Part shown: positions 1,552 to 59,403 of the stretch, piece after piece
Layout: each line of letters begins with the position of its first letter
Position numbering within the stretch: position 1 is the first letter of the stretch
From: Acidobacteriota bacterium
GTDB taxonomy: Bacteria > Acidobacteriota > UBA890 > WLXD01
DNA: 64,000 bases
NCBI GenBank assembly: GCA_012103255.1
Contig: WLXD01000002.1
Coordinates: forward strand, 744,001-808,000
Reading direction: 5' to 3'
The notes under the pieces: generated by a model
Database searches by the model: none
Told to the model about the DNA's origin: nothing
What the model saw: the letters and a program-made list of their open reading frames with translations, nothing else
Position numbers and translations under genes: made by a program

Positions 1552-1571
1552 TGGACCGGTGATTCTAGCAA

Positions 1572-2783: not shown

Positions 2784-2853
2784 CACCGCAGCCTAGCAGG
2801 AGCTACCGACGCCGGGGTTCGACAAATCCGTCGCGTTTGTTAATCCTCGTTCC

Positions 2854-4152
2854 ATGGAGTCAGTCGAGAACTCACGCACAGCCATGGAAACGATCTTCCG
2901 TCGGGAGTCGGCGCGCCTCGTTTCCGTCCTCACTCGCATCTTCGGACCTCACAATCTCGACCTTGCCGAAGACGTGGTGCAGGAGTCGTTCACCCGGGCC
3001 GTCGAGCGTTGGACTACAGAGGGGCTCCCCGAGAACCCTGGCGGCTGGCTCCTCGCAACAGCGAGAAACCGGGCGATCGATGTGATCCGCCGCGAGCGCA
3101 CGCGGCGCACTTTCGCTGGCGACCTCGCAATGCAGCTGGGCAGCGAATGGACGGTATCGGCAACTCTCCGCGAGGCTTTCGAGCCCGATGCGCTCCGCGA
3201 CGATCAACTCCGGATGATCTTCATGTGCTGCCACGAGGATCTCCGTCCAGAGAATCGAGTCACCCTGATTCTGAAGACGCTCTGCGGGCTGAGCGTTCCG
3301 GCGATTGCGCGTGCTCTTGTGACAACCGAGAGCACGATCAACAAGCGCCTCTATCGAACGAGACGGCAAGTCCGGGACTTCTCTTTCGGCGTTCCTACAG
3401 GCAGCGAGCTGCACGAGTCGCTCGAAACCGTCCACACCTCACTCTACCTCGTCTTCAACGAGGGCTACCTGTCCACCGGCGCCGAGCCGATACGCAGAGA
3501 TCTTTGCCGCGACGCGGTAGCCATGACCAACCTGCTCGCTACGTCCCCCGGAATCGCCAGCAGTGCCACGTACGCTCTTCTCGCAGTCATGAGCTTCCAT
3601 CGAGCCCGGCAGGAGTCACGCGTGGATGAGGACGGCGATCTCGTGCCGCTCGACCGGCAGGATCGCGGGCTGTGGGATCGCGCGATGATCAATGCCGGAT
3701 TCGACTATCTGAACCGAGCCCGGCGCATCGATCCGGTGGCAAAGAGCCGATACCACTACGAGGCTGCGATCGCCGCGCGGCACTGCTCAGCGCCGACGTT
3801 TGAAAACACGGACTGGGAGTCGATCTGCAAGCTCCACGATGGACTCATCGAGATCCAGCCCACGCCGGTGGTCGCCCTGAGTCGAGCCGTCGCGATCTCG
3901 TTCAGAGATGGTCCGGAGGCCGCGATTCCGGTTGTGGATCGGCTCCGCACTAGCGGTCAACTTGACCACTCGCACGCGGTCGCCGCCGTGCTTGCCAACC
4001 TCTACGCAAGAGCCGGCTCAATCGAGCCGGCTCTCGGGTTCCTCGAGGAAGCGCTCGCGCAGGCTACCACCAGCCATGAGCGCCGCCTCCTCGAACTCCA
4101 GATCCGTAGAGCCCGCGAACAGGCCGCTACTCGTACTCCTCGGCCGTCATGA
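2854..4152 (+). CDS. RNA polymerase sigma factor, ECF42 type
   Basis: This 432-residue protein has sigma region 2 near residues 15-85 (DLAEDVVQESF, then GWLLATARNRAIDVIRR) and region 4 near 120-175 (CGLSVPAIARAL plus the TESTINKRLYRTR recognition helix). A long C-terminal helical extension of about 240 residues marks ECF42 (formerly SigJ-like, COG4941). That family has no classical anti-sigma factor and is usually encoded beside DGPF/YCII proteins. Here such a gene is present, convergent and overlapping by 26 bases. The start at 2854 lacks an obvious ribosome-binding site, and ATG 2884 is an alternative. Family identity is secure; target genes are unknown. Confidence 0.92.
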   Translation: MESVENSRTAMETIFRRESARLVSVLTRIFGPHNLDLAEDVVQESFTRAVERWTTEGLPENPGGWLLATARNRAIDVIRRERTRRTFAGDLAMQLGSEWTVSATLREAFEPDALRDDQLRMIFMCCHEDLRPENRVTLILKTLCGLSVPAIARALVTTESTINKRLYRTRRQVRDFSFGVPTGSELHESLETVHTSLYLVFNEGYLSTGAEPIRRDLCRDAVAMTNLLATSPGIASSATYALLAVMSFHRARQESRVDEDGDLVPLDRQDRGLWDRAMINAGFDYLNRARRIDPVAKSRYHYEAAIAARHCSAPTFENTDWESICKLHDGLIEIQPTPVVALSRAVAISFRDGPEAAIPVVDRLRTSGQLDHSHAVAAVLANLYARAGSIEPALGFLEEALAQATTSHERRLLELQIRRAREQAATRTPRPS

Positions 4153-4495
4153 TGCGGCGCACGAGAATCCGGCCGGCAGCGTTGTTGTCGAGAAACGGGC
4201 AGCCCTGCGCTAGCTCCGTTGCCTCTTCGAGCGACGGAGCTGCGACGACGCTGTAGCCGCCCACGAGGTCCTTGACTTCCGCCATGCTCGCGTCGGTGGC
4301 GAAACCGTCTGCACTCTTGGTCAGCGCGGTGCCTTCCGGGTGCAGGGCCGCGCCCGGATTCCGGAGATGGCCGGAGCCCTCGAGCTGCTGGAACCACGCA
4401 CCCCAGGCTTGCATGGTCGCAGCGCGCTCCTCCGGTGTTGTGGTCTCGTGCCAGTCGGGATCACCGTTCTGATAGATGAGCAGGTAGTCGTGCAC
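4127..4495 (-). CDS. DGPF/YCII-related protein, ECF42 partner
   Basis: The protein has 122 residues starting at a GTG (HDYLLIYQNGDPDW) with a ribosome-binding site CGGAG about eight bases upstream; a longer upstream frame is not needed. The sequence fits the YCII-related DGPF family (conserved WGAWFQQLEGSGHL, then VGGYSVVAAPSLEEATELAQGCPFL). Such proteins adopt a small ferredoxin-like fold and are the conserved genomic partners of ECF42 sigma factors. The biochemical role is not established. The gene ends inside the 3' end of the convergent sigma factor gene, so transcripts of the two would be complementary over 26 bases. Confidence 0.88.
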   Translation of the reverse strand: MHDYLLIYQNGDPDWHETTTPEERAATMQAWGAWFQQLEGSGHLRNPGAALHPEGTALTKSADGFATDASMAEVKDLVGGYSVVAAPSLEEATELAQGCPFLDNNAAGRILVRRIMTAEEYE

Positions 4496-4629
4496 CGTTT
4501 TCTCCGTTTGCTCGGCCGATGAATTCCGGCCGCTCTTACCTTGATAACGATCGGCAGCTCGGAAATGAGACAGCCAAAGTGAGTCTTTCTCGCGGTGGCG
4601 ATCAATTCCTCGCTCGGCACGGGCGGCCG

Positions 4630-6276
4630 CTATCGCGCGCCCGGCGGCGCCACACCGTTCAGCTCCCAACGCACCATCGAAACCGGAATCACACCCACTT
4701 CTCCGAAGTCATCCATGAACCGTTTGATCGAGAACGCACTACCGCGTTCGACCGCGTATTCGGCCATCAATTGTTCGATCTCGATCTTGCCGAGCACGTA
4801 GCTGATGCCGTAACCCGGCTGGGTCAGATAGAAGTGCTCTTCACCCTTGATGGTGGCGCCATCCGCCGGCAGCCAGCCTCGCGGCGTCCACCTCGAGGCA
4901 AATTCGGAGGCCTCTTGATGGGTCCACTCGTGACCGTGCTGCATGAGACCGCCGACCGCGCGTGCGGCGCGCTGAGCCAGCAGGATCCAGATGAGTTCGC
5001 GCGCGCGCGGACGATCGTCGAACGCCCCGGCGTGCATCATCATCTCCTCGATCCCCGTCGCCATCCCTTCCGACCTGTGGTCGTAGATATTCGATAGCGC
5101 CGGCACGCTCCGGATCGGGCTTGCGTGGGGCTCCTCGCGCATCCGCGCCAGATCGAACCAGTGATATCCGTGCGTTCGCATCACCTCGCCGTCGCGATAG
5201 GTGACCTCAGAGAAGAAGCCACGTAGACCGTCCGAACGCGACGGCGGCGAGAAGCTGCCAATCCGTTCGCGCAACGCCTGATCCATCCAGGGGCGCAACG
5301 TCATGATCTCTTCTTCCTCGAGGAATTCGAGATATTCCGTCACCCCGCGATTCAAGGCTTCGTCGAACTCTTCGGGAGTCTCATACCGGCTGAGAGTCGG
5401 CAAGTCGCGGTTGCGGTTCTCCTCCAGAAGAAGCGCGGCGTTGGCGCGCCAGAGTTCGCGACGCATCAGCGTGAGAGCCTCTTCCCACGAGTACGGCACC
5501 AGGTGCACGTTCTGCAGGTACCAGCTGTAGTTGTCTTTGCCCACACCGGACAGACCATTCTTGTAGGGCAGTTCCGACTCGATCCACTCCACGAAGCTGT
5601 CTGTCGCGACGATGGCGTCGGCGAGCGCCCTGTCGAGAGCGTCGGCTGCACCCTCGACATCCGAACGGTACGAGGCCAGTTCCGCGCTCTGGCGGCGCAA
5701 CGAACCAACGCTGAGATTCCATAGGTCTTCGCCCGGCCCCACGAGATTGCCGCGCGCCTGCTCCAACAGCGCAGGGATGATCGAGAAGCGGCCGGCGAGT
5801 TCCTGCGCGTCGGTTGCGGAGAGCGGGTACTCGTAGGTCCAAGTATCGATCCAGGTATGGATCACCGGGCCCTCGTGAGCCGGCACGTCGGACTCGGCCG
5901 TGAACATCATCACGTAGAAAGCGGGGTTGTTCGCCCACGGCTTCCGCACGCGCAGATCGAAGTCGAGCCCGCGCATCTCGGCTCGAACCAACTGCCAATC
6001 AATCCGCTGAGGCAGCGGCCAGCCCGTGGGGTCCATAGCGTCCAATCGCGCCATGAGCTCGGGTAGGTCGCGGCGCTTGGAATCCATGGCGACCGGTGAG
6101 TAGTCCGGCACGCCATCGACCAAGGTCGGAGCTTCGAACTCGCGCCAGTCCTCGAAGAGGTTCAAGAGCGCGGCGTAGTCCTCGGGCAGCGTGGCGGCGC
6201 CGGATGCCGGCGCCGCGAGCAACCCAATGAGGCCCAGGGATATCGCAATACCTCGCGCGGTTCCGGAGCCCTTCAC
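4630..6276 (-). CDS. DUF885 family exported protein (putative metallopeptidase-like)
   Basis: The product has 548 residues starting at GTG 6276, four bases inside the upstream SnoaL-like gene (GTGA overlap) and with GGGGAG upstream, so translation is probably coupled. A signal peptide covers about the first 27 residues (GIAISLGLIGLLAAPASGA). The body matches DUF885, including the late motifs SEGMATGIEEMMMHAG and HEWTHQEASEF with conserved His and Glu typical of that family. DUF885 members are mostly uncharacterised; a zinc-peptidase-like fold has been proposed. Likely periplasmic. Function beyond the family label is open. Confidence 0.85.
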   Translation of the reverse strand: MKGSGTARGIAISLGLIGLLAAPASGAATLPEDYAALLNLFEDWREFEAPTLVDGVPDYSPVAMDSKRRDLPELMARLDAMDPTGWPLPQRIDWQLVRAEMRGLDFDLRVRKPWANNPAFYVMMFTAESDVPAHEGPVIHTWIDTWTYEYPLSATDAQELAGRFSIIPALLEQARGNLVGPGEDLWNLSVGSLRRQSAELASYRSDVEGAADALDRALADAIVATDSFVEWIESELPYKNGLSGVGKDNYSWYLQNVHLVPYSWEEALTLMRRELWRANAALLLEENRNRDLPTLSRYETPEEFDEALNRGVTEYLEFLEEEEIMTLRPWMDQALRERIGSFSPPSRSDGLRGFFSEVTYRDGEVMRTHGYHWFDLARMREEPHASPIRSVPALSNIYDHRSEGMATGIEEMMMHAGAFDDRPRARELIWILLAQRAARAVGGLMQHGHEWTHQEASEFASRWTPRGWLPADGATIKGEEHFYLTQPGYGISYVLGKIEIEQLMAEYAVERGSAFSIKRFMDDFGEVGVIPVSMVRWELNGVAPPGAR

Positions 6277-6686: not shown

Positions 6687-6913
6687 GTTTCTTGACTGCT
6701 CCGGTGGCGAGCCTGATCGCAGCGGCGCGAAGGGCTTTCTAGGCTGGCGTATGGCCGGCACTGTATTCGATCGCGCACCCATTGGCGGAAACGCCGCCTC
6801 CATTCGGAACCAATCGGTGGCTCGATGCGTCTAACTACTAGATCCTCTGCATCATCAGTAGAACGATCACCGCGGCATCCATACCCAAGCCTGATCGCGT
6901 CGCCGGAGAGAAG

Positions 6914-9415
6914 ATGGGAACCCTGAAAATCGCCCTACGCACACTCCTCCAGACGCCCGTGGTCACTGGAGTCGCAGTCCTTTCCCTGGCGCTGGGTATC
7001 GGCGCCAACGCCGCGATCTATTCGCTCTTCGACCAGATGCTGATGCAGGCGCTGCCCGTGGAGGAGCCTGGCGAACTCGTGAACATCGCGAACCCGGGCC
7101 CGAAGTCCGGGTGGACGTCGTGTGGCCAGGCCGGAGGATGCGACGAGATCTTCAGCTATCCGATGTTCAAGGACCTGGAAAGCGCCGAAACGGGCTTTGC
7201 TGGAATCGCGGCCCACGTCCTGTTCGGTGCCAACCTCGCGAGCGACGGCCGCACGGTAAGCGGCCAGGGCATGATGGTGTCCGGCGGCTACTTCCCCCTT
7301 CTCGGCGTGCAACCCGCGCTCGGCCGGCTGATCGACCCCGAAGACGACGCCGGATTCGGCGAGAGTTTCGTCGCGGTGCTCAGTCACGACTACTGGCAAA
7401 ACCGACTCGGTGGCGAAGCCGGCGTGCTCAACCGCTCGATCGTCATCAACGGCCAGAGCTTCACGGTCGTCGGTGTTGCGGCCGAAGGCTTCCGCGGCAC
7501 GACGCTTGGCACACAACCTGACGTCTTTGTGCCCATCACCATGCGTGCCGCGCTCGTGCCCGGCTGGGACGCATTCGAACGTCGAAATGCCTACTGGGCC
7601 TACCTGTTCGCCCGCACAGCGCCTGGAGTTGATCCCGAGAGAGCCGGCGACGAACTCAATCAGGTCTACCGCGGCGTGATCAACGACGTCGAGGCCGAGC
7701 TACAGAACATGAGTCCGGCGACGCTCGAGCGGTTCCGGGCTCGCGAGCTTGTTTTCTCAGATGGCTACCGCGGACAGAGCTCGATCCATGAGGACGTCGC
7801 AACGCCGCTGTCGTTGCTGCTCGCGATCACGGGAACCGTGCTTCTCATCGCGTGCGCCAACGTGGCGAACCTGCTTCTGGCGCGCGGCGCGCAGCGGGGC
7901 CAGGAGATGGCGGTTCGTGGTGCGCTCGGCGCCAGCCGCCGGCATCTGCTGCGCCAGCTTCTGACCGAGTCGGCGCTTCTCGCGCTAGCCGGTGGCGCCG
8001 CGAGTCTCCTCATCGCTGTTTGGACTCTACGCGGACTGTCTCTGACGGTGGACGCCGATACGATGGCCGCTCTGAGTTTCGGTTTGAGCCCGCAGATCGT
8101 CGGGTTCACTGCGGCACTGTCTCTTCTGACCGGGTTTGTGTTCGGCATGTACCCGGCACTGCATGCAACGCGATCGGATCTAGCCGCCGTCCTGCGATCG
8201 AACACCGGGCAACCGTCCGGGTCACGCGACGCTGCGCGGTTCCGCAACACGATGGTGATTGTCCAGCTCGCCCTCTCCACCGCGCTGCTTGTCGCCGCCG
8301 GGCTCTTTGTGCGCAGCCTCGTCAATGTCACCAGGGTCGACCTTGGCATCGACAGCCAGGCCATCGTCCAGTTCGGGATCTCCCCGGAACTCAACGGCTA
8401 CACGCCCGACGAGAGCCAGGAGTTGTTCCGTCAGGTCGAGGAGTCCCTGGACACGTTGCCGGGTGCGAGCGCAGTAACTGCCAGTCTCGTAGCGATCTTC
8501 ACCGGTAGCAACTGGGGGCAGAGTTTCTCGGTCGAGGGTTTCGAGGGGGGTCCGGATATCGACTCCAACGCACGGCTCAACTACGTCGGCCCCGGCTACT
8601 TCAGCGCGCTGGGGGTGCCGCTGCTCGCCGGTCGCGAATTCACCACGTCTGACACGCTAGACACCCCACGGGTCGCCGTCATCAACGTTGCGTTCGCCGA
8701 GAAGTTCGGCCTCGACCCGCGCCGTGCTGTTGGCAAGCGACTCTCGGACAACGGCGCCGGCGTTGAAGAGCTCGATGTCGAAATCATCGGCGTCATCGAG
8801 AACGCCAAGTACGCCGAAGTCAAACAGACGGTTCCGCCGCTGTACTACGCGCCGTATCGCCAGAACGACAGTCTCGGCGACATGACGTTCTACGTCCGCG
8901 CGGATGGCGACCCCGACCAGATTCTCCGGGCGGTACCTTCGGTGATCGAGCGTCTGGATCCTAATCTGCCGGTCGAGAACCTCAAGACGCTCGAGACCCA
9001 GATCAAGGAAAACATCGTGCTGGACCGCGTCATCAGCATGCTATCGAGCGGATTCGCGAGCCTCGCGACGATACTCGCCGCCGTCGGCCTCTACGGCGTA
9101 CTCGCCTTCACGGTGTCTCAACGCACTCGAGAGATCGGGGTGCGGATGGCGCTCGGGGCGAATCCCTGGACCGTCCGCGGACTCGTCCTTGGTCAGTTGG
9201 GCAAGATGACGGTGATCGGCGTTGTGCTGGGGATGGCCGGTGCGTACGCGCTGGGCCAGGCAGCCGAGTCACTTCTGTTCGAACTCGAAGGCACTGACCC
9301 GCTGACCATCACGCTTTCCGTAGCCGGTCTATTCACCGTGGCACTGCTCGCCGGCTACTTGCCGGCCCGTCGCGCATCCCGGGTCGATCCGATGCGCGCC
9401 CTCCGCAACGAGTAG
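6914..9415 (+). CDS. ADOP-type duplicated ABC permease A (no prefix domain, no PadR)
   Basis: A 833-residue protein in two repeat halves. Half one has a membrane helix near 18-42, a MacB-like extracytoplasmic core to about 270, and an FtsX domain of three helices (LLLAITGTVLLIACANVANLLLA onward). Half two starts near 440 with another helix, a second core, and a final FtsX domain ending YLPARRASRVDPMRALRNE, a typical ADOP end. No ABC ATPase is encoded nearby. The protein begins directly with the first helix region (MGTLKIALRTLLQTP) and lacks the cytoplasmic prefix seen in four relatives here; no PadR gene adjoins. The ribosome-binding site GGAGAGAAG supports the start. The family's function is unknown. 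Confidence 0.9.
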   Translation: MGTLKIALRTLLQTPVVTGVAVLSLALGIGANAAIYSLFDQMLMQALPVEEPGELVNIANPGPKSGWTSCGQAGGCDEIFSYPMFKDLESAETGFAGIAAHVLFGANLASDGRTVSGQGMMVSGGYFPLLGVQPALGRLIDPEDDAGFGESFVAVLSHDYWQNRLGGEAGVLNRSIVINGQSFTVVGVAAEGFRGTTLGTQPDVFVPITMRAALVPGWDAFERRNAYWAYLFARTAPGVDPERAGDELNQVYRGVINDVEAELQNMSPATLERFRARELVFSDGYRGQSSIHEDVATPLSLLLAITGTVLLIACANVANLLLARGAQRGQEMAVRGALGASRRHLLRQLLTESALLALAGGAASLLIAVWTLRGLSLTVDADTMAALSFGLSPQIVGFTAALSLLTGFVFGMYPALHATRSDLAAVLRSNTGQPSGSRDAARFRNTMVIVQLALSTALLVAAGLFVRSLVNVTRVDLGIDSQAIVQFGISPELNGYTPDESQELFRQVEESLDTLPGASAVTASLVAIFTGSNWGQSFSVEGFEGGPDIDSNARLNYVGPGYFSALGVPLLAGREFTTSDTLDTPRVAVINVAFAEKFGLDPRRAVGKRLSDNGAGVEELDVEIIGVIENAKYAEVKQTVPPLYYAPYRQNDSLGDMTFYVRADGDPDQILRAVPSVIERLDPNLPVENLKTLETQIKENIVLDRVISMLSSGFASLATILAAVGLYGVLAFTVSQRTREIGVRMALGANPWTVRGLVLGQLGKMTVIGVVLGMAGAYALGQAAESLLFELEGTDPLTITLSVAGLFTVALLAGYLPARRASRVDPMRALRNE

Positions 9416-44504: not shown

Positions 44505-44858
44505 ATGTCTGACCGCAACGCGCACGACTACCTGCCTCTCCGCCCCGTCGAGTTCCAGATCCTGCTCAGCCTGAGCGCTGGTCCGCGACATGGCTATCGC
44601 ATCATCCAGGACGCCGAAGAACGCGGCGAGGAAGCCGCAGTTCCTGGCCTGGCGACCCTGTATCGAGCCCTGCGACGCCTCGAGGCCGAGGGTCTCATCG
44701 AACAGAGCGACACCGCGTCAGAGCAGGACGAGCGACGGCGCCCGTATCGCCTCTCCGGACTCGGCGTGGAAGTTGCCCGACTCGAAGCTCGTCGACTGGC
44801 CTCTCAGCTCGGGTCCGAGGCAGGTGCAGCTCTTCTGGACCCGGAGGCAAGTCGATGA
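44505..44858 (+). CDS. PadR-family repressor 2, ADOP-D partner
   Basis: The protein has 117 residues and a PadR winged helix: VEFQILLSLSAGPRHGYRIIQD, LATLYRALRRLEAEGLIEQ and a wing RRRPYRLSGLGVEVARLEA. Its stop overlaps the start of ADOP-D by four bases (ATGA). Two 19-base inverted repeats precede it, so autorepression together with ADOP-D is likely. The start ATG 44505 has no strong ribosome-binding site; AGCGAG is close. PadR identity is firm, effector unknown. Confidence 0.93.
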   Translation: MSDRNAHDYLPLRPVEFQILLSLSAGPRHGYRIIQDAEERGEEAAVPGLATLYRALRRLEAEGLIEQSDTASEQDERRRPYRLSGLGVEVARLEARRLASQLGSEAGAALLDPEASR

Positions 44859-47509
44859 TCGCGGCAAGCGTCCGTCAGATCTACCAGATCATCTTTCGTC
44901 TCTACCCAGCGGAGTTCCGCGCCGCCGTGGGGCAGTCGCTGCTGGCCGACTTCGACGAAGGTCTCGGCAAGGAAAATGCCGGTAGGGTCGGCTTCGGCAT
45001 TCGTCAGACGCTCGATCTCGCGCGCAACCTCAGCAGCGAGTGGAGGACCCCGAGCGGACCGAGGAGACCAGGACGAGATCGAGGCCGCACTTCACGGCTG
45101 CGCGCGATGCGCGAGGACATCCGGAGCGCCGGCCGGTCGCTCCACCGTGATCCGGCATTCACGCTCGTCGCCGTTGTTGTGATGGGACTGGGCATGGCGG
45201 GCTTGATTGCCGTCTACGGAATCGTGGAAGCGGTGTTGTTGGAGCCCCTGCCGTACCCCGATGCCAATCGGCTGGTTTCACTCACCGAGAGCTACCGCAT
45301 CGAGCAGCGCAAGTCGGTGGCCTACCCGAACTATCTCGACTGGCGAGCGCGTAACCGCACCTTGGAGGAACTCGGTGCCCGGGCATGGAATTCGATCAAT
45401 CTGACCGGGCTCGGCCCGGCTCGGAATATCGACGCCATGGGCATCACCCCGAACCTGCTCGGCATGCTGGGAGTCGGCACATTGCAGGGTCGGATCTTCA
45501 ACGAGACGGAAGCAGCCGATCGCGCCCGCGTGATCTTGCTATCGGAAGGGTTCTGGCGCGACACCATGGGCGCCAGACCCGACGTCGTCGGCGAGACGCT
45601 CTTGCTGGACGGCGAGCCGTTCATCGTCGTCGGCGTCCTAGAAGACCAGGCCGAGTTTCCACTCGCCGAGGCAGCGCTATGGATGCCGCTGCGCACATCT
45701 TTGTCGTCTGTCGATATGTCCAGCCGCAGCAGTCATCCGGGTATCGAGGCCATCGGTCGGATGACGAAAGGTACGAATGCTCACCAGGCACGTCTAGACT
45801 TCGAACGTATCGCCACCGAATTGGCAAGCGACTACCCGGAAACGAACGCGGAAGCCGGTGTGGTAGTCCGCCCCCTCCGCGAACGGGTCGTGGCGAACTC
45901 GACCACAACGCTATGGCTCCTGTTCGGAGCGGTCACGATCGTCATGCTCGCCATCAGCGCGAACGTCGCCGGCCTCATGCTGACCCGCGCGACGCGACGC
46001 GATGGAGAACTCGCGGTTCGTGCCGCGCTGGGAGCAGCGCGAAGTCGTCTGGCGACGCAATTGACGGCAGAGGCTCTCCTTCTCGCGATCAGCGCTGGTT
46101 TTCTTGGTTTGACCCTCGCAGCGATGGTTCTACGTCTTGTCAGAGGCAGCTCCGGGCTCGGCCTGGCACGCCTGAATGTGGTCCAGATGGACTCATCGGT
46201 GGCCGCCGCGGCCATTGCGATAGCCACTCTTTGCGGCCTGGTAGTTGCCGGTACGACCCTTACACGTCTCACACACATACGCGCCGCCGCGACGCTCCGC
46301 GATGCCGCGGAGCGCAGCGTCGTCGGGTCGAAACACCGCCTGCGTCGTCTTCTCGTCACGACGCAGGTCGCGCTCGCTGTTGTTCTGCTAGCGGGCGCCG
46401 GGCTCATGACACGAAGCCTTACCAACCTGGCTCAGGCCGGCGTCGGTATCGCGCCGGGGAATGTTCTGACCGCATATATCGGGCCGCCCCAGACGAGCTA
46501 CCCCGAGAACGCCGATCGCGTAGAACTCTACGCCGCCCTGGCGAGCGCCGCGCGGGCACTGCCCGGCGTCGTGGGTGTGTCTGGCGGCGATCCGCTACCG
46601 CTGTCGGGGCGCAACAACCAGACGACGCTCTCCGGCGATGGATTCCCGCAGATCGACGAGATGGGACATCGCGTCGAGGTGACCCGGATCATGCCGGACT
46701 ATTTCGCGACCATGGGCATCGATCTCCTCGAAGGTCGCGATGTACGTCTCGACGACACCATCGATTCCCCCGTGGTGCTGATCGACTCGACGCTGGCTGA
46801 AACGCTGTTTCCCGACGGCCGCGCGCTCGGTCAACGCCTGCGCATCCGCGGCCCCGCCGCGGACCGTCCATGGCACACGATTGTCGGAGTTGTTGGCCAC
46901 GTGAAGAACTACGGCATCCGCAACGAGTCGCGCGGACAGCTCTACGTGCCATTCACGACGAGTGCCTGGGGCATGACCCTCCTGGTTGAGACCGAACGCG
47001 GAGGTACGGACGCGGAGGTGATTGACGCGCTGCGCACGACGTTGTTCGACATCGATCCAGAGCTCCCACTGACTCGTGTGAGCACGGTGAACAGCTACCT
47101 CCACGACTCCATCGCCACCGAGACAATTCTGACGCAGACTCTCAGCGGCTTCGCCGCGGTGGCATTGATTGTTTCGATCATCGGGCTCTACGGGATGGTT
47201 GCCTACTCGGTCGCGCTACGGACGCGGGAGATCGGCATCCGCATGGCGCTCGGCGCCCGGGCCGCGCGCGTTCTCTCGACAGTCGTCCTGGAAGGTGCGC
47301 TACTGGGTACGGTCGGGGCCGCGGGCGGAGTGGTTGTGAGCCTCCTTGCCGGCCGCTGGATCGCCAGTGCCCTCTACGACATCACGCCTGCCGATCCAGG
47401 GACTCTCGGTGCGGCGGCGACGGGAATGATCGTCGTGGCCGTGCTCGCCGCTTTCGTGCCGGCCCTGCGCGCGATCCGGGTGCAACCGACGCAGGCGCTG
47501 CGCGGCTAG
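44855..47509 (+). CDS. ADOP-type duplicated ABC permease D, prefix type
   Basis: The 884-residue protein begins with a cytoplasmic prefix of about 85 residues (IFRLYPAEFRAAVGQSLLADFDEG). The ADOP core follows: helix FTLVAVVVMGLGMAGLIAVYGIV, MacB-like core with YPNYLDWRARNRTL, FtsX helices near 365-470, then a second core and FtsX domain ending FVPALRAIRVQPTQALRG. The two cores resemble MacB periplasmic domains, but no ATPase is encoded. Translational coupling to PadR-2 is shown by the ATGA overlap. Confidence 0.92.
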   Translation: MIAASVRQIYQIIFRLYPAEFRAAVGQSLLADFDEGLGKENAGRVGFGIRQTLDLARNLSSEWRTPSGPRRPGRDRGRTSRLRAMREDIRSAGRSLHRDPAFTLVAVVVMGLGMAGLIAVYGIVEAVLLEPLPYPDANRLVSLTESYRIEQRKSVAYPNYLDWRARNRTLEELGARAWNSINLTGLGPARNIDAMGITPNLLGMLGVGTLQGRIFNETEAADRARVILLSEGFWRDTMGARPDVVGETLLLDGEPFIVVGVLEDQAEFPLAEAALWMPLRTSLSSVDMSSRSSHPGIEAIGRMTKGTNAHQARLDFERIATELASDYPETNAEAGVVVRPLRERVVANSTTTLWLLFGAVTIVMLAISANVAGLMLTRATRRDGELAVRAALGAARSRLATQLTAEALLLAISAGFLGLTLAAMVLRLVRGSSGLGLARLNVVQMDSSVAAAAIAIATLCGLVVAGTTLTRLTHIRAAATLRDAAERSVVGSKHRLRRLLVTTQVALAVVLLAGAGLMTRSLTNLAQAGVGIAPGNVLTAYIGPPQTSYPENADRVELYAALASAARALPGVVGVSGGDPLPLSGRNNQTTLSGDGFPQIDEMGHRVEVTRIMPDYFATMGIDLLEGRDVRLDDTIDSPVVLIDSTLAETLFPDGRALGQRLRIRGPAADRPWHTIVGVVGHVKNYGIRNESRGQLYVPFTTSAWGMTLLVETERGGTDAEVIDALRTTLFDIDPELPLTRVSTVNSYLHDSIATETILTQTLSGFAAVALIVSIIGLYGMVAYSVALRTREIGIRMALGARAARVLSTVVLEGALLGTVGAAGGVVVSLLAGRWIASALYDITPADPGTLGAAATGMIVVAVLAAFVPALRAIRVQPTQALRG

Positions 47510-47568: not shown

Positions 47569-50331
47569 ATGCGTCGTTCTTCAGTCCCCCCGCGCCCAGG
47601 GCAGCGGGTCGTCAGCGACTCCGAACCGGAGCTCGGCCTCGGCACGCTCGTGTCGATGGAAGGCCGCGCTGTCGTCGTGTACTTCGACGGAACCGGGGAA
47701 GAGCGTCGCTACGCCGCAGGCTCCTCTCCCCTGCACCGACTGTTGTTCGGCGCCGGCGATGAAATCGTCGATGCCGACGGCGGCCGATGGATCGTGGACG
47801 ATGTCGTCGAGCGTGACGGCATCGCCGTCTACCAATGCGCGGACCAGGAGATCCCGGAGAATCTACTGAACCCGCGGATGGCGCTCGGCGGCCCTCGCGA
47901 ACGGTTGCTGGCCGGCCGCTTCGACGCGCCGCATCTTTTCGACCTCCGGCTCAGAGCGCGCCAGGCCACCGAGGCACTCCGGTCCTCGCCAGGCCGCGGC
48001 CTTGTCGGTGCGCGGCTCGAACTGCTCCCGCATCAGTTCTTCATCGCGAGCGAGGTCGCAGGTCGCCGGCTGCCGCGGGTTCTGCTCGCCGATCAAACCG
48101 GGCTTGGGAAGACCATCGAAGCCTGCCTGATCCTTCACCGACTCCTGCTTACCGGCAGGGCGCAACGGGCGCTAATTCTCGTGCCGGACGCTCTGGTGCA
48201 TCAGTGGCTCGTTGAACTCTCTCGCCGGTTCAATCTGCGCGTGGCGCTCTATGACGAGGAACGTTGCGCCGCGGTTCAAGACAGCGAGCCCGGCGCGAAT
48301 CCGTTCGATGACGAACAAGTCGTGCTGGCGGGGTGGTCACTGCTGGTCGATCGCGACTCACGTGCCGCCGAGGCCGCCGAGGCCGGGTGGGATCTGGTGA
48401 TTGTCGACGAGGCACACCATCTAGGCTGGTCGCGAGGCGAGCCCAGCCCCGAATATGCCGCCGTCGAGCAGGTATCGGCCTCCGCGGAAGGCGTGTTGCT
48501 CCTCACGGCGACGCCTACCCAACTGGGCGAAGAAGGGCACTTCGCCCGCCTGCGCTTGCTGGATCCCGACCGCCATACCGACTTCGACACCTGGAAGCTC
48601 GAGTCCGAGCAGCACCGCCGCGTAGCAGACCTGGGCGAGGTGCTCATTGGTGATGCCGCTATCGCTGCCGCCGATCTCGACGAGTTGGTCGGCACCCTGG
48701 AGCGAGAGCGCGACGAAGTCGCCGAGGCGGTCCAAGATCGCGCAGGCCGCGATGCGCTCCTCGCCCAACTGATCGATCGCCACGGCCCCGGACGGGCCAT
48801 ATTCAGCAACACGCGCTCGGTGCTCCCCAAGCTGCCAAGCCGTGAGGTACAGCTTCATCCGCTGGCTCCTGCTGAGGATGATCCACGACTCGGCTTCCTC
48901 TTGCGGCGACTGCGGGAAACCGATGAGAAGCTACTGGTGATATGCCACTCGGCGAAGACCGCGCAGTCGATCAAGGCACAACTCGAGATTCAGACCCGAC
49001 AGCCGATCGCTCTTTTCCATGAGGACATCGACCTCGTTCAGCGCGACCGCAATGCGGCCTGGTTCGTCGAGCCCGACGGCGCCCGAATGATGATCTGCTC
49101 CGAAATTGGCAGCGAAGGGCGCAACTTCCAGCACGCCCGACGGCTCGTGATGTACGACCTGCCGCTGGACCCCGATCTCGTCGAGCAACGGATTGGGCGA
49201 GTCGACCGCATCGGGCAACGCCACGACGTGGCGATCGATGTCCCTTACCTGGTTGGCACGGGACACGAAGTTCGCGCGCGATGGCAACACGACGGAGTCA
49301 ACAGCCTGACTCGCCATGTCACGGTCGCGCAGCCTCTGCTGGAAGTGTTCGAAAACCGCGTGCAGCAACTCGCGGCCGGATGGGACGCAGGAAACGACTC
49401 CGCGGGAGACCTCGAGGATCTGATATCGGAGACAGCCGAACTGACTGCTGCTTTGGAGAGCCGCGTCGAAAGCGGCCGGGATCGGCTGCTGGAGATGTCT
49501 TCTCTCCGAGCTGACCGCGCCGAAGGGGTGTTGGAGCTTGTACGAACTCACGACGCAGACGTCGAAGCAGACGAGTTCTTCCTACGCCTCCTCGAGCATT
49601 TCCAGGTCATCGCGGATGAACTTGGCGAGCGAACCTACCGATTCGATCCCGATGGTCTCGCACGCGTGAACTTCTCAGCCCTCCGACAGGGAGACGTAAC
49701 ATTTACCTTCGACCGCGAGAAGGCGCTCCTTCGAGAGGACTATGAGTTCGCCACGGTCGACCACCCGCTGTTCGAGGACGCGCTAGGTGCACTGCTCGAC
49801 GCCGAAACAGGCAACGCGAGCTTCGCGGTGGTGGCGTCGGAGGATTCGCCACGACTGCTCGTCGAAACGGTTTTCGTTCTTGAGCCCGTAGCGCCGCCGG
49901 GCCTCCACGCGGATCGGTACCTGCCGCCCACCTGCATCCACATCACGGTCGACATCGGCGGCAATCCTGTTGCGGGCCCGCCAGAGGAGCCCGGCGGGCG
50001 CGGCAACCGGGAGTGGCTCCGTGCCTACCTGCCCGACTTGCGGACGCCCCTGCGCGCGGCTGTCTCCGCGGCCGAACGCATGGCGAACGAACGAGCGGAA
50101 GGCGTTCGGGAAGCGGCGAACGCTCGCGCCGAAACCGAGCTAGGCGGTGAAACTGATCGGTTGCGCGCGCTCGCCGTCAGCAACCCGAATGTCCGTCCCG
50201 AAGAGGTCGCCCTTCTCGAGTTGGAGCGCGAGGAACTCGCCCGTCACATCGTGCAGGCCAGGCTGCGCCTGGACGCTCTGAAGCTCATCTGGCACGGGCC
50301 TGCGGAGAAGGGCCGGCCCAAGACCGGTTAG
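47569..50331 (+). CDS. rapA: RNA polymerase-associated SNF2-type ATPase RapA
   Basis: The 920-residue protein (E. coli RapA 968) matches RapA along its length. N-terminal Tudor-like domains (GQRVVSDSEPELGLGTLVS) precede an SNF2 helicase: LLPHQFFIASEV, LLADQTGLGKTIEACLIL (Lys181, ATP), DEAH near 280, and the C-lobe FHEDIDLVQRD, SEIGSEGRNFQHARR and VEQRIGRVDRIGQ. RapA binds core RNA polymerase and helps recycle it after transcription. Most characterised members are gammaproteobacterial; here DQTGLGKT replaces the commoner DEVGLGKT. It stands 59 bases after ADOP-D and may be separately expressed. Confidence 0.93.
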   Translation: MRRSSVPPRPGQRVVSDSEPELGLGTLVSMEGRAVVVYFDGTGEERRYAAGSSPLHRLLFGAGDEIVDADGGRWIVDDVVERDGIAVYQCADQEIPENLLNPRMALGGPRERLLAGRFDAPHLFDLRLRARQATEALRSSPGRGLVGARLELLPHQFFIASEVAGRRLPRVLLADQTGLGKTIEACLILHRLLLTGRAQRALILVPDALVHQWLVELSRRFNLRVALYDEERCAAVQDSEPGANPFDDEQVVLAGWSLLVDRDSRAAEAAEAGWDLVIVDEAHHLGWSRGEPSPEYAAVEQVSASAEGVLLLTATPTQLGEEGHFARLRLLDPDRHTDFDTWKLESEQHRRVADLGEVLIGDAAIAAADLDELVGTLERERDEVAEAVQDRAGRDALLAQLIDRHGPGRAIFSNTRSVLPKLPSREVQLHPLAPAEDDPRLGFLLRRLRETDEKLLVICHSAKTAQSIKAQLEIQTRQPIALFHEDIDLVQRDRNAAWFVEPDGARMMICSEIGSEGRNFQHARRLVMYDLPLDPDLVEQRIGRVDRIGQRHDVAIDVPYLVGTGHEVRARWQHDGVNSLTRHVTVAQPLLEVFENRVQQLAAGWDAGNDSAGDLEDLISETAELTAALESRVESGRDRLLEMSSLRADRAEGVLELVRTHDADVEADEFFLRLLEHFQVIADELGERTYRFDPDGLARVNFSALRQGDVTFTFDREKALLREDYEFATVDHPLFEDALGALLDAETGNASFAVVASEDSPRLLVETVFVLEPVAPPGLHADRYLPPTCIHITVDIGGNPVAGPPEEPGGRGNREWLRAYLPDLRTPLRAAVSAAERMANERAEGVREAANARAETELGGETDRLRALAVSNPNVRPEEVALLELEREELARHIVQARLRLDALKLIWHGPAEKGRPKTG

Positions 50332-50335
50332 AACC

Positions 50336-52417
50336 TCAGCGCTCGAAAATGTCGAGTGGCAGGATCGCGGTCACGCCCACGTTGGGCGCGTCCACGAGCT
50401 GCCCGATACGGAGATCCACGGCAACCGAGGCAATGATGAACGCCTGCTCACGCGAGTAGCCGTACCTGTCGACGATGAAGTCGATCATCTGCAACAGCGC
50501 GTTGCGCGCGGCGAGCCCGATGTCCTTGGATAGGTTTTCCAATCCGGGGATTCTCGCGGCCTCCAGATACTCGAGATCAGGAGGAGTCTCGCCAGCTCTC
50601 TTCAACGGCAGTCCCGTGGTGGCATGGAACCGTTCGGAGGGGATCCCGAGCAGCGTCGCTGGCCCCTCGTATTGCGGTCCCTGGCTCACGTCCATCTCCC
50701 CGGCCGGAAGCAGCTCAGTCGTCAACATCACGGTGGCGTCCATCTCAATCGCCGTGCCAGCAACTTCCCCATCGCCCTGCGCGTAGTGCAGGTCGCCCAC
50801 CGAAAGGCCGCACCCGTCGACCTGGCACGGCAGATAGATCGTTGATCCCACGCCAAGGTAGCGGATGTCCATATTGCCGCCGTTCTCGCGGGGCGGGAAC
50901 GTCCGTAAACACTCGTGTTCGTGAGCCGTCCCCGCGCCGCAGATCCCAACCGGCGCCGCATTCGCCGACAAGGGCGGGCTCACGGCTCCGCCGGCCTCGA
51001 GCAGTTCCGCCTCGCGCGCAAGCATCGCCGCGTGGTCCGACTCGCCAGGTAACGTCGTGACGATTCCTGGAAAGCTTCGGTTGGGGATCCGAACTCCGGG
51101 CAGCTGCTCGCTCTCGGCATAGCGCGAGTTGAGATCCCAGATCACACGCAGATTCGACTCCATAGTGTCCGTGACCAGACCGTTCCGTGTAATCGTGGTG
51201 AAGCCCCACGCACCGGGCACGATGCCGAGAAGCCGAACCATCAGCACATCCCCCGCTCGTGCTCCCTCGATCCGGATGGGGCCAACCAGGGGATGTACCG
51301 CGCTTCCAGGCGGCCCCGCTGCGCGCGGATCGCGATCGGCCCCCGGCTCCAGATCGAAGTCAGAGGCGTTCCGGCTATCCAGCATCACCACGTCGCCTGG
51401 CGCGACGGTGGCCACCATTGGAATGGCTGGGTGCATGCGATTCATGCAATGCGGGTCATCGGGACAGCCTCTCGCGAAATCACCCAGGTCGACGAGCCTC
51501 CGGCCGCCGACCGGCGACAGACGAGCTTGAACCGCCTCCGGGCCGGGGGCTGCCGGAGCGGCCACTGCCCGCTCTCGCATATCAAAGGCATCGCCCGCCG
51601 ATAGCAAGAAGTAGGGCCGAGCCTCCGCATCGTAGTCACGCGTATTGTCGTGAACCGCCACGTCACCAACACCAACAACTTCGAACCGATCGCCGTGCAC
51701 GACGACCGCGGTGCTCTCGGAGATCCCGAGCCCCAGAAGATGTGGTTGCTGCGCGATCACTGGAATGATGTCGTCCCAGCGGTCGCGGGTATCGATGTGT
51801 TGATCGATTGCCGAGCGGCGCAGGAACTCGAAGCCGCGCTGGTGGTTGGACTCATCCGTCATCACGATGCCGGAGCCCCGTGTGTCACCCCTCACCAGAT
51901 ACTCGCCCTGGATCGTGGCGCCGGCCGAACTCCCGCCGATCACGCCACCGCGGGCCAGAACGTCGTGCATGGCCTCGTAGGTCCGGGTTCCGGCGTAGGA
52001 GTCGACGATGTTCCATTGGCGGCCGCCGTTGAACCAAACTGCGGTCGCCTCTTCGAGCGTTGCGATGAATTCGTCCGTGTCGGCCACCGCGGGGTCGTGC
52101 GTGTGCAACATGCTCACACTGCGGAGACCGCGAGCGCGCCAGCGAGCGAGGACACGATCCTCGTCGAAGGACCTGACAGTTCCATCCTGATTGCGGTTCC
52201 CGCCGGCTGTGGGCACGATCACAAAATGCCCGTCGCTGGCGCCGCCACCGAGCTCGATGAACCTCTCGAGGATGCCGGACTCGTCGAGCGGCCCGCCCCC
52301 GGCGATCACCAGAGCGCCGCGACCGGGGCCGTACTCCGTCGATTCCTGACCCAACGCGGCTCCCGCCGAGCCGACGACGAAAAACACCAGCACAACCCCA
52401 AGCACTTCGCGCCGCAT
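50336..52417 (-). CDS. Exported fusion: cyanophycinase-like S51 domain + acetamidase/formamidase domain
   Basis: The 693-residue protein starts at ATG 52417 (GGAGG six bases upstream) with a signal peptide ending ALGQ. Residues about 30-290 match cyanophycinase-like peptidase S51: WFNGGRQWNI (GGxQ motif), nucleophile Ser164 in GGSSAGAT and DQHIDTRDRWDDI. Residues about 325-693 match the FmdA/AmdA acetamidase/formamidase family: HPAIPMVATVAPGDVVMLDSRN, VHPLVGPIRIEGARAGDVL, GGNMDIRYLGVGSTIYLPC and a final ASVAVDLRIGQLVDAPNVG. The first would cut Asp-linked dipeptides and the second small amides. It ends five bases from rapA, convergent. Confidence 0.88.
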   Translation of the reverse strand: MRREVLGVVLVFFVVGSAGAALGQESTEYGPGRGALVIAGGGPLDESGILERFIELGGGASDGHFVIVPTAGGNRNQDGTVRSFDEDRVLARWRARGLRSVSMLHTHDPAVADTDEFIATLEEATAVWFNGGRQWNIVDSYAGTRTYEAMHDVLARGGVIGGSSAGATIQGEYLVRGDTRGSGIVMTDESNHQRGFEFLRRSAIDQHIDTRDRWDDIIPVIAQQPHLLGLGISESTAVVVHGDRFEVVGVGDVAVHDNTRDYDAEARPYFLLSAGDAFDMRERAVAAPAAPGPEAVQARLSPVGGRRLVDLGDFARGCPDDPHCMNRMHPAIPMVATVAPGDVVMLDSRNASDFDLEPGADRDPRAAGPPGSAVHPLVGPIRIEGARAGDVLMVRLLGIVPGAWGFTTITRNGLVTDTMESNLRVIWDLNSRYAESEQLPGVRIPNRSFPGIVTTLPGESDHAAMLAREAELLEAGGAVSPPLSANAAPVGICGAGTAHEHECLRTFPPRENGGNMDIRYLGVGSTIYLPCQVDGCGLSVGDLHYAQGDGEVAGTAIEMDATVMLTTELLPAGEMDVSQGPQYEGPATLLGIPSERFHATTGLPLKRAGETPPDLEYLEAARIPGLENLSKDIGLAARNALLQMIDFIVDRYGYSREQAFIIASVAVDLRIGQLVDAPNVGVTAILPLDIFER

Positions 52418-52593
52418 TCGCAACCTCCACTGTCGGGACAACGGTCGAGATCCTACCGGATCGAAGTCCTTCAGCTCACGAAGCAGACACGAAATGCCCT
52501 TGCTGCCCCAACGCGGATATGGCTCGATAATCCCTGCGATCAGCGCCCTCCCTCAAAGACCCTCGCCACCTTGGCCCCCGCTCTGGAGCACCT

Positions 52594-54657: not shown

Positions 54658-55119
54658 TTACCCTTCTGAACTAAGTCGTTCGCGAACCGCCCGGTTGACG
54701 GCCGTACCATCGAGACCATCGTGATTCTTCATGATGTGTCCCATCACGCGACCGATCGCTGAAGGGTCCGACGCTCCCAGCTCCGCGATGGCGGCATCAA
54801 CGATTTCTCCGAGATCTGCGGCCGACACGCTCTCCGGCAACCACCGCTGCAGGTATTCGACCTCGAAGCGAAGCTTCGCTGCCGCCTCAGCGCCGCGCTC
54901 ACCGTAGCCCTCGTACTCGACCAGCGCTTTGCGCATCTTCTTGGCGTACGCGGCGATCGTGACGCGATATAGGTCGTCGTCGGGTTCGGCATCGAAGCCC
55001 GGAGCGGTAACCACGCGTTGGATCTCGGTGTTGATCTGCCGTACGACGTCCGCACGGGCGCCATCACGCTCTCGCATGGCGTCCTTCAGTTCTGCTGCAA
55101 GGTCGTCCTTGATCGTCAC
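54658..55119 (-). CDS. YqeY/GatB-related protein
   Basis: The 153-residue protein starts at GTG 55119, seven bases after GGAG, overlapping the upstream P-loop gene by four bases. It has the YqeY pattern: IKDDLAAELKDAMRERD, YLQRWLPESVSAADL, and the tail domain DPSAIGRVMGHIMKNHDGLDGTAVNRAVRERL shared with GatB and Glu-tRNA amidotransferase tail domains. The domain binds tRNA in GatB; the role of free YqeY is not settled. Cytoplasmic. Confidence 0.93.
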   Translation of the reverse strand: MTIKDDLAAELKDAMRERDGARADVVRQINTEIQRVVTAPGFDAEPDDDLYRVTIAAYAKKMRKALVEYEGYGERGAEAAAKLRFEVEYLQRWLPESVSAADLGEIVDAAIAELGASDPSAIGRVMGHIMKNHDGLDGTAVNRAVRERLSSEG

Positions 55120-56419: not shown

Positions 56420-56752
56420 ATGTCGAAGGACTCGCTAGGCGATCTGGAATTCCTGGTTCTACTTGCCATTCTGCGGCTCGAGGACCATGCGTACGGCGTA
56501 TCGATCGCCGAGGAACTCGACGAGCGTGCCGGGCGTAGCCTGTCGCGAGCGACGATCCACGTCACCCTGCGACGGCTAGAAGAGCATGGCCTTGTAGGCT
56601 CTGAGCTCGGCGCGCCACGCGACGACCGTGGCGGAAAACCGCGGCGCTACTACCGCGTTCGCGCCGCGGGACTGCAGTTGGTGCGGCGGTCCAAGGAAAC
56701 GTACTCCCGCATGTGGCACGGCCTCGGTGCCGTCCTTGAAGGCTCCCGGTGA
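56420..56752 (+). CDS. PadR-family repressor 3, ADOP-E partner
   Basis: The protein has 110 residues and a PadR winged helix: LEFLVLLAILRLEDHAYGVSIAEEL, LSRATIHVTLRRLEEHGLV and a wing GGKPRRYYRVRAAGLQLV. The stop overlaps the GTG of ADOP-E by four bases. A 15-base tandem repeat with inner inverted repeats lies just downstream of its promoter, fitting self-repression. The start ATG 56420 has AAGGT at a good distance. Effector unknown. Confidence 0.92.
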   Translation: MSKDSLGDLEFLVLLAILRLEDHAYGVSIAEELDERAGRSLSRATIHVTLRRLEEHGLVGSELGAPRDDRGGKPRRYYRVRAAGLQLVRRSKETYSRMWHGLGAVLEGSR

Positions 56753-59403
56753 ATCCGCCTCGACTCTGGCGAGCACTCGTCAACCGTGTCGTGTGGCGGG
56801 ATCGCCGCCATGACATCGCTGCCGATCTGACGGAGGAATTCCGCCACCGCGCGCACGCCGATTCGCCGCGATCCGCACGCCGTTGGTACCGCCGGCAAGC
56901 GCTTGGTTTTGTGAATGCTCGGCTCAAGGAACTCCGGACAATCCCGTTTTCTACTTTGGTAACACGGTCCGACATCCGCGTCGCAGCCCGTCAGGCACGC
57001 CGGCAGCCTGCCGCGACCCTCACGGTAGTCGTCGCGCTGGCCGCTGTGATCGGCCTATCCGTGATCGCATTCACGCTAGCCAAAGGGTTCTTCTTGGTGA
57101 GCTCGGTGTTCCCGAGCGGCGACACCGTCTACGCCGCCCTGGTCAACCGTGCCGAGATCGGTGCCACCCAGGACGTGTATCCCGACGAGGTCCGAGCGTG
57201 GGCGGAACGCGCTCGTTCGATCGAGATGATCGGCGCCGCTCAGATCATCTTCCCGGCAATCGAGCACGGCGATCGACCGCCCTTCCCTCTGGAGTCCGCT
57301 CGCGTGTCGCCCGCCGCTTTTGCGCGGATCGCGCCACCGCCCGTCCTCGGACGCCACTTGTCGGAGGACGATGCGCTGCCAGGCGCCGAACCTGTCATGG
57401 TGATCAGCTATTTCATCTGGCGGAGCCTCTTCGACGAGTCGGATGAGATCGTTGGCACCGTGGTGCCATTCGGCGGCCGCCAACACACCGTCGTCGGCGT
57501 CATGCCGCGTGGCTGGCTCTTCCCAGCCGCTCAGGAGGCGTGGATCCCGTTGTCGCTGGATGCGACTGGCGAGGCTGCCGCGGCCCGGGTGGCTGCAGGC
57601 CCGACGGAGCGTAACGATCAGTACTCGATCACCTGGGTAATTCTCGAGGAAGGCGCGAGCCCGCAGAGCGCCTCCGAGGAACTCACGGTGATTGCGCGCG
57701 AACTCGCGAACGGCCCCTCGGAGTTGGGCGTCCAGGTTGTCCTCTACGCCGACGCACTGGTGCCAGGCCCCTTCAAGATCGCGGCCGGCCTGGTTCTCGG
57801 AATCCTTCTGGTGTTCCTGTGCGGCGTGAGTCTCAACGTGGCCACGCTCGTGCTGTCGCGCTGCGCCATGCGCTCTGACGAACTTGCTGTACGGGCTGCC
57901 ATGGGTGCGCCTCGCGTGCGCATTGTGACCCAGCTCTTTCTGGAGTCGCTGCTCCCAAGTCTCCTGGCCGCCCTTCTCGCGACCTTCCTGCTCAAGTGGG
58001 TACTCCTCGGACTCGACCGCGCCATCGATGGAGCGCTGCCGATGTTCATCAACCTCGACGTGTCACCGGTCGTCTTCATCTACGCGGCGACGCTGGCCTT
58101 CGTCGCCAGCGGGCTCGCCGGGGTGTTGCCGGCCTTGAGAGTGACCAGGACCGATCATGCTGCGCGCCTGCTCAACTCCGGTGGCGCACGCAGCTCGAAC
58201 GCTTCGCTGGGCCGCGTGGCTGCGGTGATGCTCGAACTGCAGTTGGTGGCAGCGCTTACGCTGCTGGGCCTTGGCGGGCTCTTCGCCAACGCATTCGCAA
58301 CCTATACGCAGGTTGCCGCGGGACCAGTGCCGGAGGACCGCGTTCTTACCGCGATGCTCTACCGCGATCCTCGAATCGCGGAGCAAACGGGTGCCAACGG
58401 TGCGAACCGGGAGGAGATGCAGGAGCGCCTCAAGCAGTGGACCGATGCGCTCCGCAGTATTCCTGGGGCGGAGGCTGCCGCCATCACCCAACAGATCCCC
58501 AAGCAGAGCAACAGCGAGGAGCTGGTGCAGGTCGACGGCGACACTGAAACGATCACCCGGCGGGTACGCAGAACCCGCGTTGGTCCAGGCCTCTTCGAAA
58601 CTCTGAGCGTCACGCCGACTCTAGGTAGAGTCTTTGACGCGGCCGACGCCGAGCTGGAGGCCTTTCCCGTGGTCGTTGTCAGCGAGAGTTTCGCGGCGGA
58701 CGTTCTGGGCAGCGGCACGCCTCTAGGTCGCAAGTTGCGTACGGTGATGGACGACGGCGCACTTGGCGAGTGGGCGGAGATCGTCGGCGTGGTACCGGAT
58801 CTGGCGCCTCCGCTGCGCAGCGCCACTGCCGGCGGCGAGATCTATCGGCCGTTGGCGGCTGCAAACCCTGTCTACGCCGCGGTCCGGTTCTCCGGTTCGG
58901 TGCGTGACCTCGCGCAGGGGCTGCGCGCCACCGTCCAGGAGATGGACCCCACGGTGCGGGTCACGGACACGATGCCCTACTCAAGGGCGGGCTGGGAGGT
59001 TCGCAGCACATTCGCCGCCGTGGGATCCGCCCTCGCCGGGCTCGGCGGTGTGGCGATGCTGTTGTCGCTCGCCGGCGTGTATTCACTCGCCTCGCTGGCC
59101 GTCACAACTCGCACTCGAGAGATCGGCACACGGGTAGCCCTGGGTGCGCCGAGGCGAGCCGTGCTTCAGGCGGTACTCGGGCGCACGGCACGTCAACTCG
59201 GGATCGGCTTCGCCGCCGGCATCGTGCTGGCTCTATTGCTCGCGCAGCTCACCAGCCTGCTGCCGTTCGAGATCCCCATGAGCGTGGGCGTGGTGGTCCC
59301 CCTGCTGGCGTTTCTGCTCTTGCTCGGTGGACTGCTCGCCTCCTGGGTACCAGCGCGACGCGCTTTGCGCATCGAACCGATGGACGCGCTGCGCTCGGAG
59401 TAA
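56749..59403 (+). CDS. ADOP-type duplicated ABC permease E, second prefix type
   Basis: The 884-residue protein starts at GTG 56749 within the PadR-3 stop. Its prefix differs from ADOP-B, D and F: WRDRRHDIAADLTEEFRHRA, with a charged helix and no RLxP motif, about 80 residues. The core has the first helix near 85-110, MacB-like domain, FtsX helices near 340-465, and a second half ending LLASWVPARRALRIEPMDALRSE. No ATPase. It ends six bases from the convergent protease gene. Confidence 0.9.
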   Translation: MNPPRLWRALVNRVVWRDRRHDIAADLTEEFRHRAHADSPRSARRWYRRQALGFVNARLKELRTIPFSTLVTRSDIRVAARQARRQPAATLTVVVALAAVIGLSVIAFTLAKGFFLVSSVFPSGDTVYAALVNRAEIGATQDVYPDEVRAWAERARSIEMIGAAQIIFPAIEHGDRPPFPLESARVSPAAFARIAPPPVLGRHLSEDDALPGAEPVMVISYFIWRSLFDESDEIVGTVVPFGGRQHTVVGVMPRGWLFPAAQEAWIPLSLDATGEAAAARVAAGPTERNDQYSITWVILEEGASPQSASEELTVIARELANGPSELGVQVVLYADALVPGPFKIAAGLVLGILLVFLCGVSLNVATLVLSRCAMRSDELAVRAAMGAPRVRIVTQLFLESLLPSLLAALLATFLLKWVLLGLDRAIDGALPMFINLDVSPVVFIYAATLAFVASGLAGVLPALRVTRTDHAARLLNSGGARSSNASLGRVAAVMLELQLVAALTLLGLGGLFANAFATYTQVAAGPVPEDRVLTAMLYRDPRIAEQTGANGANREEMQERLKQWTDALRSIPGAEAAAITQQIPKQSNSEELVQVDGDTETITRRVRRTRVGPGLFETLSVTPTLGRVFDAADAELEAFPVVVVSESFAADVLGSGTPLGRKLRTVMDDGALGEWAEIVGVVPDLAPPLRSATAGGEIYRPLAAANPVYAAVRFSGSVRDLAQGLRATVQEMDPTVRVTDTMPYSRAGWEVRSTFAAVGSALAGLGGVAMLLSLAGVYSLASLAVTTRTREIGTRVALGAPRRAVLQAVLGRTARQLGIGFAAGIVLALLLAQLTSLLPFEIPMSVGVVVPLLAFLLLLGGLLASWVPARRALRIEPMDALRSE

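Follow-up and report, generated by a model that had tools for sequence, protein, structure and literature searches.

The window, the whole 64,000-nucleotide stretch of DNA analyzed here, carries on its minus strand a single frame of 693 amino acids (50336..52417), in which a cyanophycinase-like peptidase domain is followed by an acetamidase/formamidase domain. The frame runs from an ATG at 52417 to a TGA ending at 50336, and the initial annotation had placed one continuous frame between exactly these coordinates without giving the strand. Six nucleotides ahead of the ATG, the upstream sequence reads as a Shine-Dalgarno GGAGG (52424..52428, minus strand). Residues 1 to 23 (MRREVLGVVLVFFVVGSAGAALG; 52349..52417, minus strand), followed by QES, form a putative Sec signal peptide with the n, h and c regions judged by inspection of the translation, and 38 of 40 stand-alone homologues of the first half also begin with a hydrophobic N-terminus. 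The protein appears to be exported, as had been claimed, on the strength of its signal-peptide-like start.

The Peptidase_S51 domain occupies residues 32 to 286, approximately (51560..52324, minus strand), and the FmdA_AmdA domain residues 302 to 693 (50339..51514, minus strand), both supported by Pfam, AF2, Foldseek and alignment. Between them lies a Pro/Ala-rich linker at about residues 287 to 301 (51515..51559, minus strand), near which stand-alone S51 homologues stop, while mature FmdA homologues begin at about residue 302. After the linker AAPAAPGPEAVQARLSPVGG, the FmdA half opens as a mature N-terminus would, with RRLVDLGD against QEIVEVGD in a stand-alone relative (L022). The GC profile by codon position, with high GC3 and low GC2, continues unbroken from one half into the other. 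No start codon for the FmdA half was found across residues 285 to 325, which rules out its separate translation from an internal start, and no signal peptide for it was found in any frame at the junction. Consequently, if the FmdA half is exported, it must ride on the S51 signal, and a simple frameshift error cannot explain the fusion.

Gene order around the fused gene

The window lies deep within a 1.04-Mb contig of a nine-contig assembly, and the fused gene has as neighbors a helicase, a methyltransferase and an OmpA protein. The helicase, of the RapA-type SNF2 group (47569..50331, plus strand; Pfam RapA_C and SNF2), is convergent with the fused gene, and only 4 nt separate the two stop codons; its ortholog holds the same place in a genome of the same genus (G001). 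On the other side, a small gene (54658..55119, minus strand; 71% by blastn to positions 6837-7276 of the G001 locus, L109), which we take to be YqeY/GatB-like, has its counterpart immediately upstream of the S51 gene in G001. The order RapA helicase, S51, small upstream gene, PadR (recognized by eye) and MacB is therefore common to the window and G001. Genes for MacB/FtsX-type permeases were seen on both sides of the fused gene, at 44855-47509 (from Pfam) and at 56749-59403 (from inspection and synteny with G001).

In G001, the S51 gene is stand-alone and complete, with 297 amino acids, its own stop codon and 72% identity to the fused S51 half. The slot matching the FmdA half contains two other genes there, one for an Amidohydro_1 protein and one for a methyltransferase. 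The Amidohydro_1 gene (L109:4564-6024, minus strand) follows S51 and encodes an apparently exported protein; the longest frame that can be read for it overlaps the end of S51. Judged from these sequences, the fusion in the window looks real.

The two halves of the protein

The S51 and FmdA halves were modeled separately in AF2 because a full-length MAFFT alignment had placed FmdA homologues over the S51 half. In the S51 half, Pfam Peptidase_S51 (PF03575) matches residues 48 to 247 (E = 1.7e-15; 57.7 bits against a curated cutoff of 23.9), and the AF2 model (pLDDT 93) superimposes in Foldseek on the cyanophycinase CphB structures 3en0 and 7uqw with TM scores of 0.72 to 0.76. The motifs GGSSAGA (161 to 167), DQH (205 to 207) and GISEST (231 to 236) supply the GxSxG nucleophile elbow and the Ser164-His207-Glu234 triad of the family, the latter invariant in all 52 alignment rows. 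The GGSSAGA and QH...R catalytic features read in the initial annotation are thus present. The half contains no cysteine. In the tree, it groups with the G001 protein and with sequences of Acidobacteriota, Gemmatimonadota and Bacteroidota, and a search for a gene neighborhood conserved across this clade found none. At two S51 loci (L072 and L073), the gene downstream of S51 resembles, by eye, a tryptophan 2,3-dioxygenase.

The closest solved relative of this half by both sequence and fold is 7uqv (28% identity), from Pseudobacteroides cellulosolvens and deposited as a pseudo-CphB, which is reportedly inactive on cyanophycin. Unlike the S51 half, it is unfused and, in the alignment, keeps an Arg at the position of CphB Arg183. 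Six residues are critical in CphB, namely, Q101, D172, Q173, R178, R180 and R183 (PMC3235067). Five of these have retained equivalents in the fused protein (Gln134, Asp205, Gln206, Arg211 and Arg213), and the sixth, the substrate-pocket Arg183, is replaced by Asp216 in the alignment to 3en0 (codon 51770..51772, minus strand). Across the family alignment, this position holds D, H or E in 43 of 52 rows and R in the other 9, the two sets being split by one fully supported branch of the tree. A single pocket change is not decisive alone, since active CphE carries a Thr at the Q173 position (PMC3235067).

The FmdA half matches FmdA_AmdA (PF03069) over residues 321 to 692 (E = 3.2e-78; 263.7 bits against a curated cutoff of 27) and covers profile positions 12 to 372 of 373. 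This agrees with the complete FmdA/AmdA pattern noted at the outset. Its score against the formamidase equivalog NF045496 is 197.2 bits, far from the cutoff of 500. The AF2 model (pLDDT 86) matches 2wkn, deposited as a formamidase/gamma-lactamase from Delftia acidovorans and the closest solved relative of this half, with a TM score of 0.83 and 30% identity; RE-GGN-D-type and GDLH--QGDGE-type core motifs are common to both. The deposited 2wkn chain is single-domain, whereas the FmdA half is fused and carries the six conserved cysteines of its exported subclade. Family-invariant positions are kept, among them R510, E511, G513 to N515, D517, D542, H544, D549, E551 and E558. The initial annotation had named loss of catalytic residues as grounds for doubt; no such loss is seen at family-conserved positions, as the alignment retains the S51 triad and the FmdA-family invariants and both halves model confidently.

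Each of the six FmdA-half cysteines is conserved in 27 to 33 of 33 rows, and they probably form disulfides. Their presence here and absence from the S51 half suits an oxidizing compartment. Stand-alone FmdA relatives have hydrophobic N-termini of their own. In its own tree, the FmdA half clusters, with good support but no resolved sister, among sequences of its own phylum, of Calditrichota and of some Pseudomonadota, and the fused protein is the sole PF03069 protein found in the genome. It is plausible, from the sequences compared, that the FmdA half was gained from outside the genus.

Occurrence of the domain combination

A pattern scan of an 84,980-species collection, requiring exact 8-residue matches, yielded 140 relatives or loci, of which the best 80 were kept. 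Among these 80, no protein combined S51 and FmdA, and the two did not occur as neighbors or in an operon within the fetched flanks of about 1.5 to 6 kb. In about 1,650 whole genomes, sampled from larger groups and with some searches returning strong matches only, no second fusion was found and the halves were separate. The genomes searched included about 400 of the same phylum, 395 of the phylum of a Gemmatimonadetes record (L098), 754 from two further classes (one with a Kordiimonas record, the other with a Woeseiaceae record) and 40 belonging to the same phylum as a Calditrichia record; the organism's own family was thinly represented, by three other genomes. S51 and FmdA are separate in all relatives examined, most of which have a hydrophobic N-terminus of their own. 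In the sample from the organism's own phylum, both families co-occurred in 2 of 395 genomes, which is not significantly above chance (P about 0.10), so that a pathway link between S51 and FmdA is unsupported.

In the literature searched, no paper pairs the two family accessions or the two family names. The view that these domains are not usually joined therefore stands, and the domain-architecture searches run here did not reveal an architecture already common or characterized. By these comparisons, S51 plus FmdA is a new combination of known families and apparently rare.

Other fusions occur in the same apparently exported S51 clade, all in one frame, and they differ from the protein described here in the partner domain and its side, none containing FmdA. 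They comprise an S51 domain with a C-terminal M14 zinc carboxypeptidase (1039 aa, Gemmatimonadetes; L098:2940-6059, plus strand), an S51 domain followed at the C-terminus by an M28 peptidase (L128:847-3162, minus strand; 772 aa, same phylum as G396), PD40 beta-propeller repeats followed by S51 in Kordiimonas aquimaris (L035:5005-6813, plus strand), and a weak alpha/beta-hydrolase-like (esterase-like) region below Pfam cutoffs, followed by an Ala/Pro-rich linker and S51 (L132:2396-3922, minus strand). This count is not systematic. On a different contig, K. aquimaris encodes a stand-alone FmdA relative (54%) as well. An 875-aa open frame in another genome (G526) was rejected as a further fusion, as its extra N-terminus resembles noncoding read-through. 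These cases make the S51-FmdA protein one example of a pattern, and we regard it as what one lineage has made of an exported hydrolase module that is prone to fusion.

Interpretation of the fusion

Domain fusions can mark enzymes acting together. The best explanation of the locus, to which we give a probability of about 0.58, is a lineage-specific in-frame gene fusion that created one exported bifunctional hydrolase, and the protein is probably bifunctional. An FmdA-type amidohydrolase of mature length is joined in frame where the G001 S51 protein ends. The single chain would be exported by Sec, its two domains folding independently on the short Pro/Ala linker. The S51 half, through Ser164, His207 and Glu234, would cut an acidic or isoaspartyl-type peptide bond, not chiefly cyanophycin, and the substrate of the FmdA half would be an amide that is small or cyclic. 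What the cell would gain is two amide-bond hydrolases exported and located together for extracellular nitrogen scavenging; two hydrolysis steps in series on one substrate are possible. Against this explanation stand the occurrence of the fusion in one genome, the fairly long branches of both halves, the pseudo-CphB name of the nearest S51 structure and the co-occurrence of the two families at no more than chance level.

The most serious competitor, although we consider it unlikely, is that only one half is an active enzyme, the other being catalytically dead and acting for it as a scaffold, oligomerization unit or binding module. The branches that lead to the two halves in their trees are fairly long (0.41 and 0.69), which makes relaxed selection on one half possible. 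Moreover, the nearest S51 structure is named a pseudo-CphB, so that cyanophycinase-like residues are no guarantee of activity, and members of the S51 clade are also joined to PD40 repeats. On the contrary, the full triad and the family-invariant FmdA residues are all kept, and both domains are confidently modeled as whole folds.

Less probable still, and in our view improbable, is an exported CphE-like S51 enzyme that degrades cyanophycin, after which FmdA would deaminate the products and release ammonia. The S51 half resembles CphB and CphE (MEROPS S51, TIGR02069) in its fold, its Ser-His-Glu triad and the equivalents of Gln101, Asp172, Gln173, Arg178 and Arg180, and it shares with CphE an apparent export. 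Exported cyanophycinases are known (PMC3235067), and the organism has a cyanophycin pathway, making the polymer part of its biology. However, the fused S51 differs from both enzymes in its separate clade, its fusion to FmdA, the Asp in place of Arg183 and its score of 109.6 bits against TIGR02069, below the equivalog cutoff of 126.6, as are two of its stand-alone relatives (105.7 and 113.1).

Genomic context points the same way. Cyanophycinase genes cluster with cphA1 or isoaspartyl dipeptidase in 78% of cyanophycinase genomes (PMC10206079), a feature that is typical but not strictly defining. The fused S51 shows no such clustering, and the clustered copy is a different gene: outside the window, the same genome holds a canonical cyanophycin cluster (G000:C2:175-6711, locus L122). 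Here the isoaspartyl dipeptidase IadA (361.5 bits; cutoff 331.25), a CphB without an apparent signal peptide (235.6 bits to TIGR02069) and the cyanophycin synthetase CphA1 (1139.5 bits; cutoff 850) lie within positions 175-4986, and a second, shorter synthetase-like gene is also present. Since these canonical enzymes are kept elsewhere, the fused protein is probably not the cyanophycin machine, and together with the subcutoff score and the noncyanophycin neighbors they make such a role less likely. In addition, beta-Asp-Arg lacks a simple primary amide that FmdA could release, and the known next enzymes are IadA and IaaA (PMC10206079). The suggestion in the initial annotation that the protein could take apart Asp-Arg-type polymers is accordingly weakened.

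An assembly or sequencing artifact welding two adjacent genes, for which it can be said that one genome only carries the fusion, is very improbable given the position deep in a large contig, the synteny on both flanks, the continuous codon periodicity and the lack of a hidden, lost FmdA signal peptide in any frame.

Returning to an exported bifunctional hydrolase as the preferred reading, the recurrence of fusions permits a broader and highly speculative proposal. The exported S51 clade could be a mobile "first-cut" module for an undescribed beta-linked or protease-resistant extracellular amide polymer, repeatedly welded to a finishing hydrolase (FmdA, M14 or M28), in which case the S51-FmdA protein would carry out two steps in the breakdown of this polymer. 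The S51-FmdA, S51-M14 and S51-M28 fusions draw attention to an apparently exported S51 clade whose members come mostly from Acidobacteriota and Gemmatimonadota; they resemble cyanophycinase, yet their substrate is probably a different one. Were this substrate found, annotations would be corrected, and a source of nitrogen that these bacteria use outside the cell might come to light.
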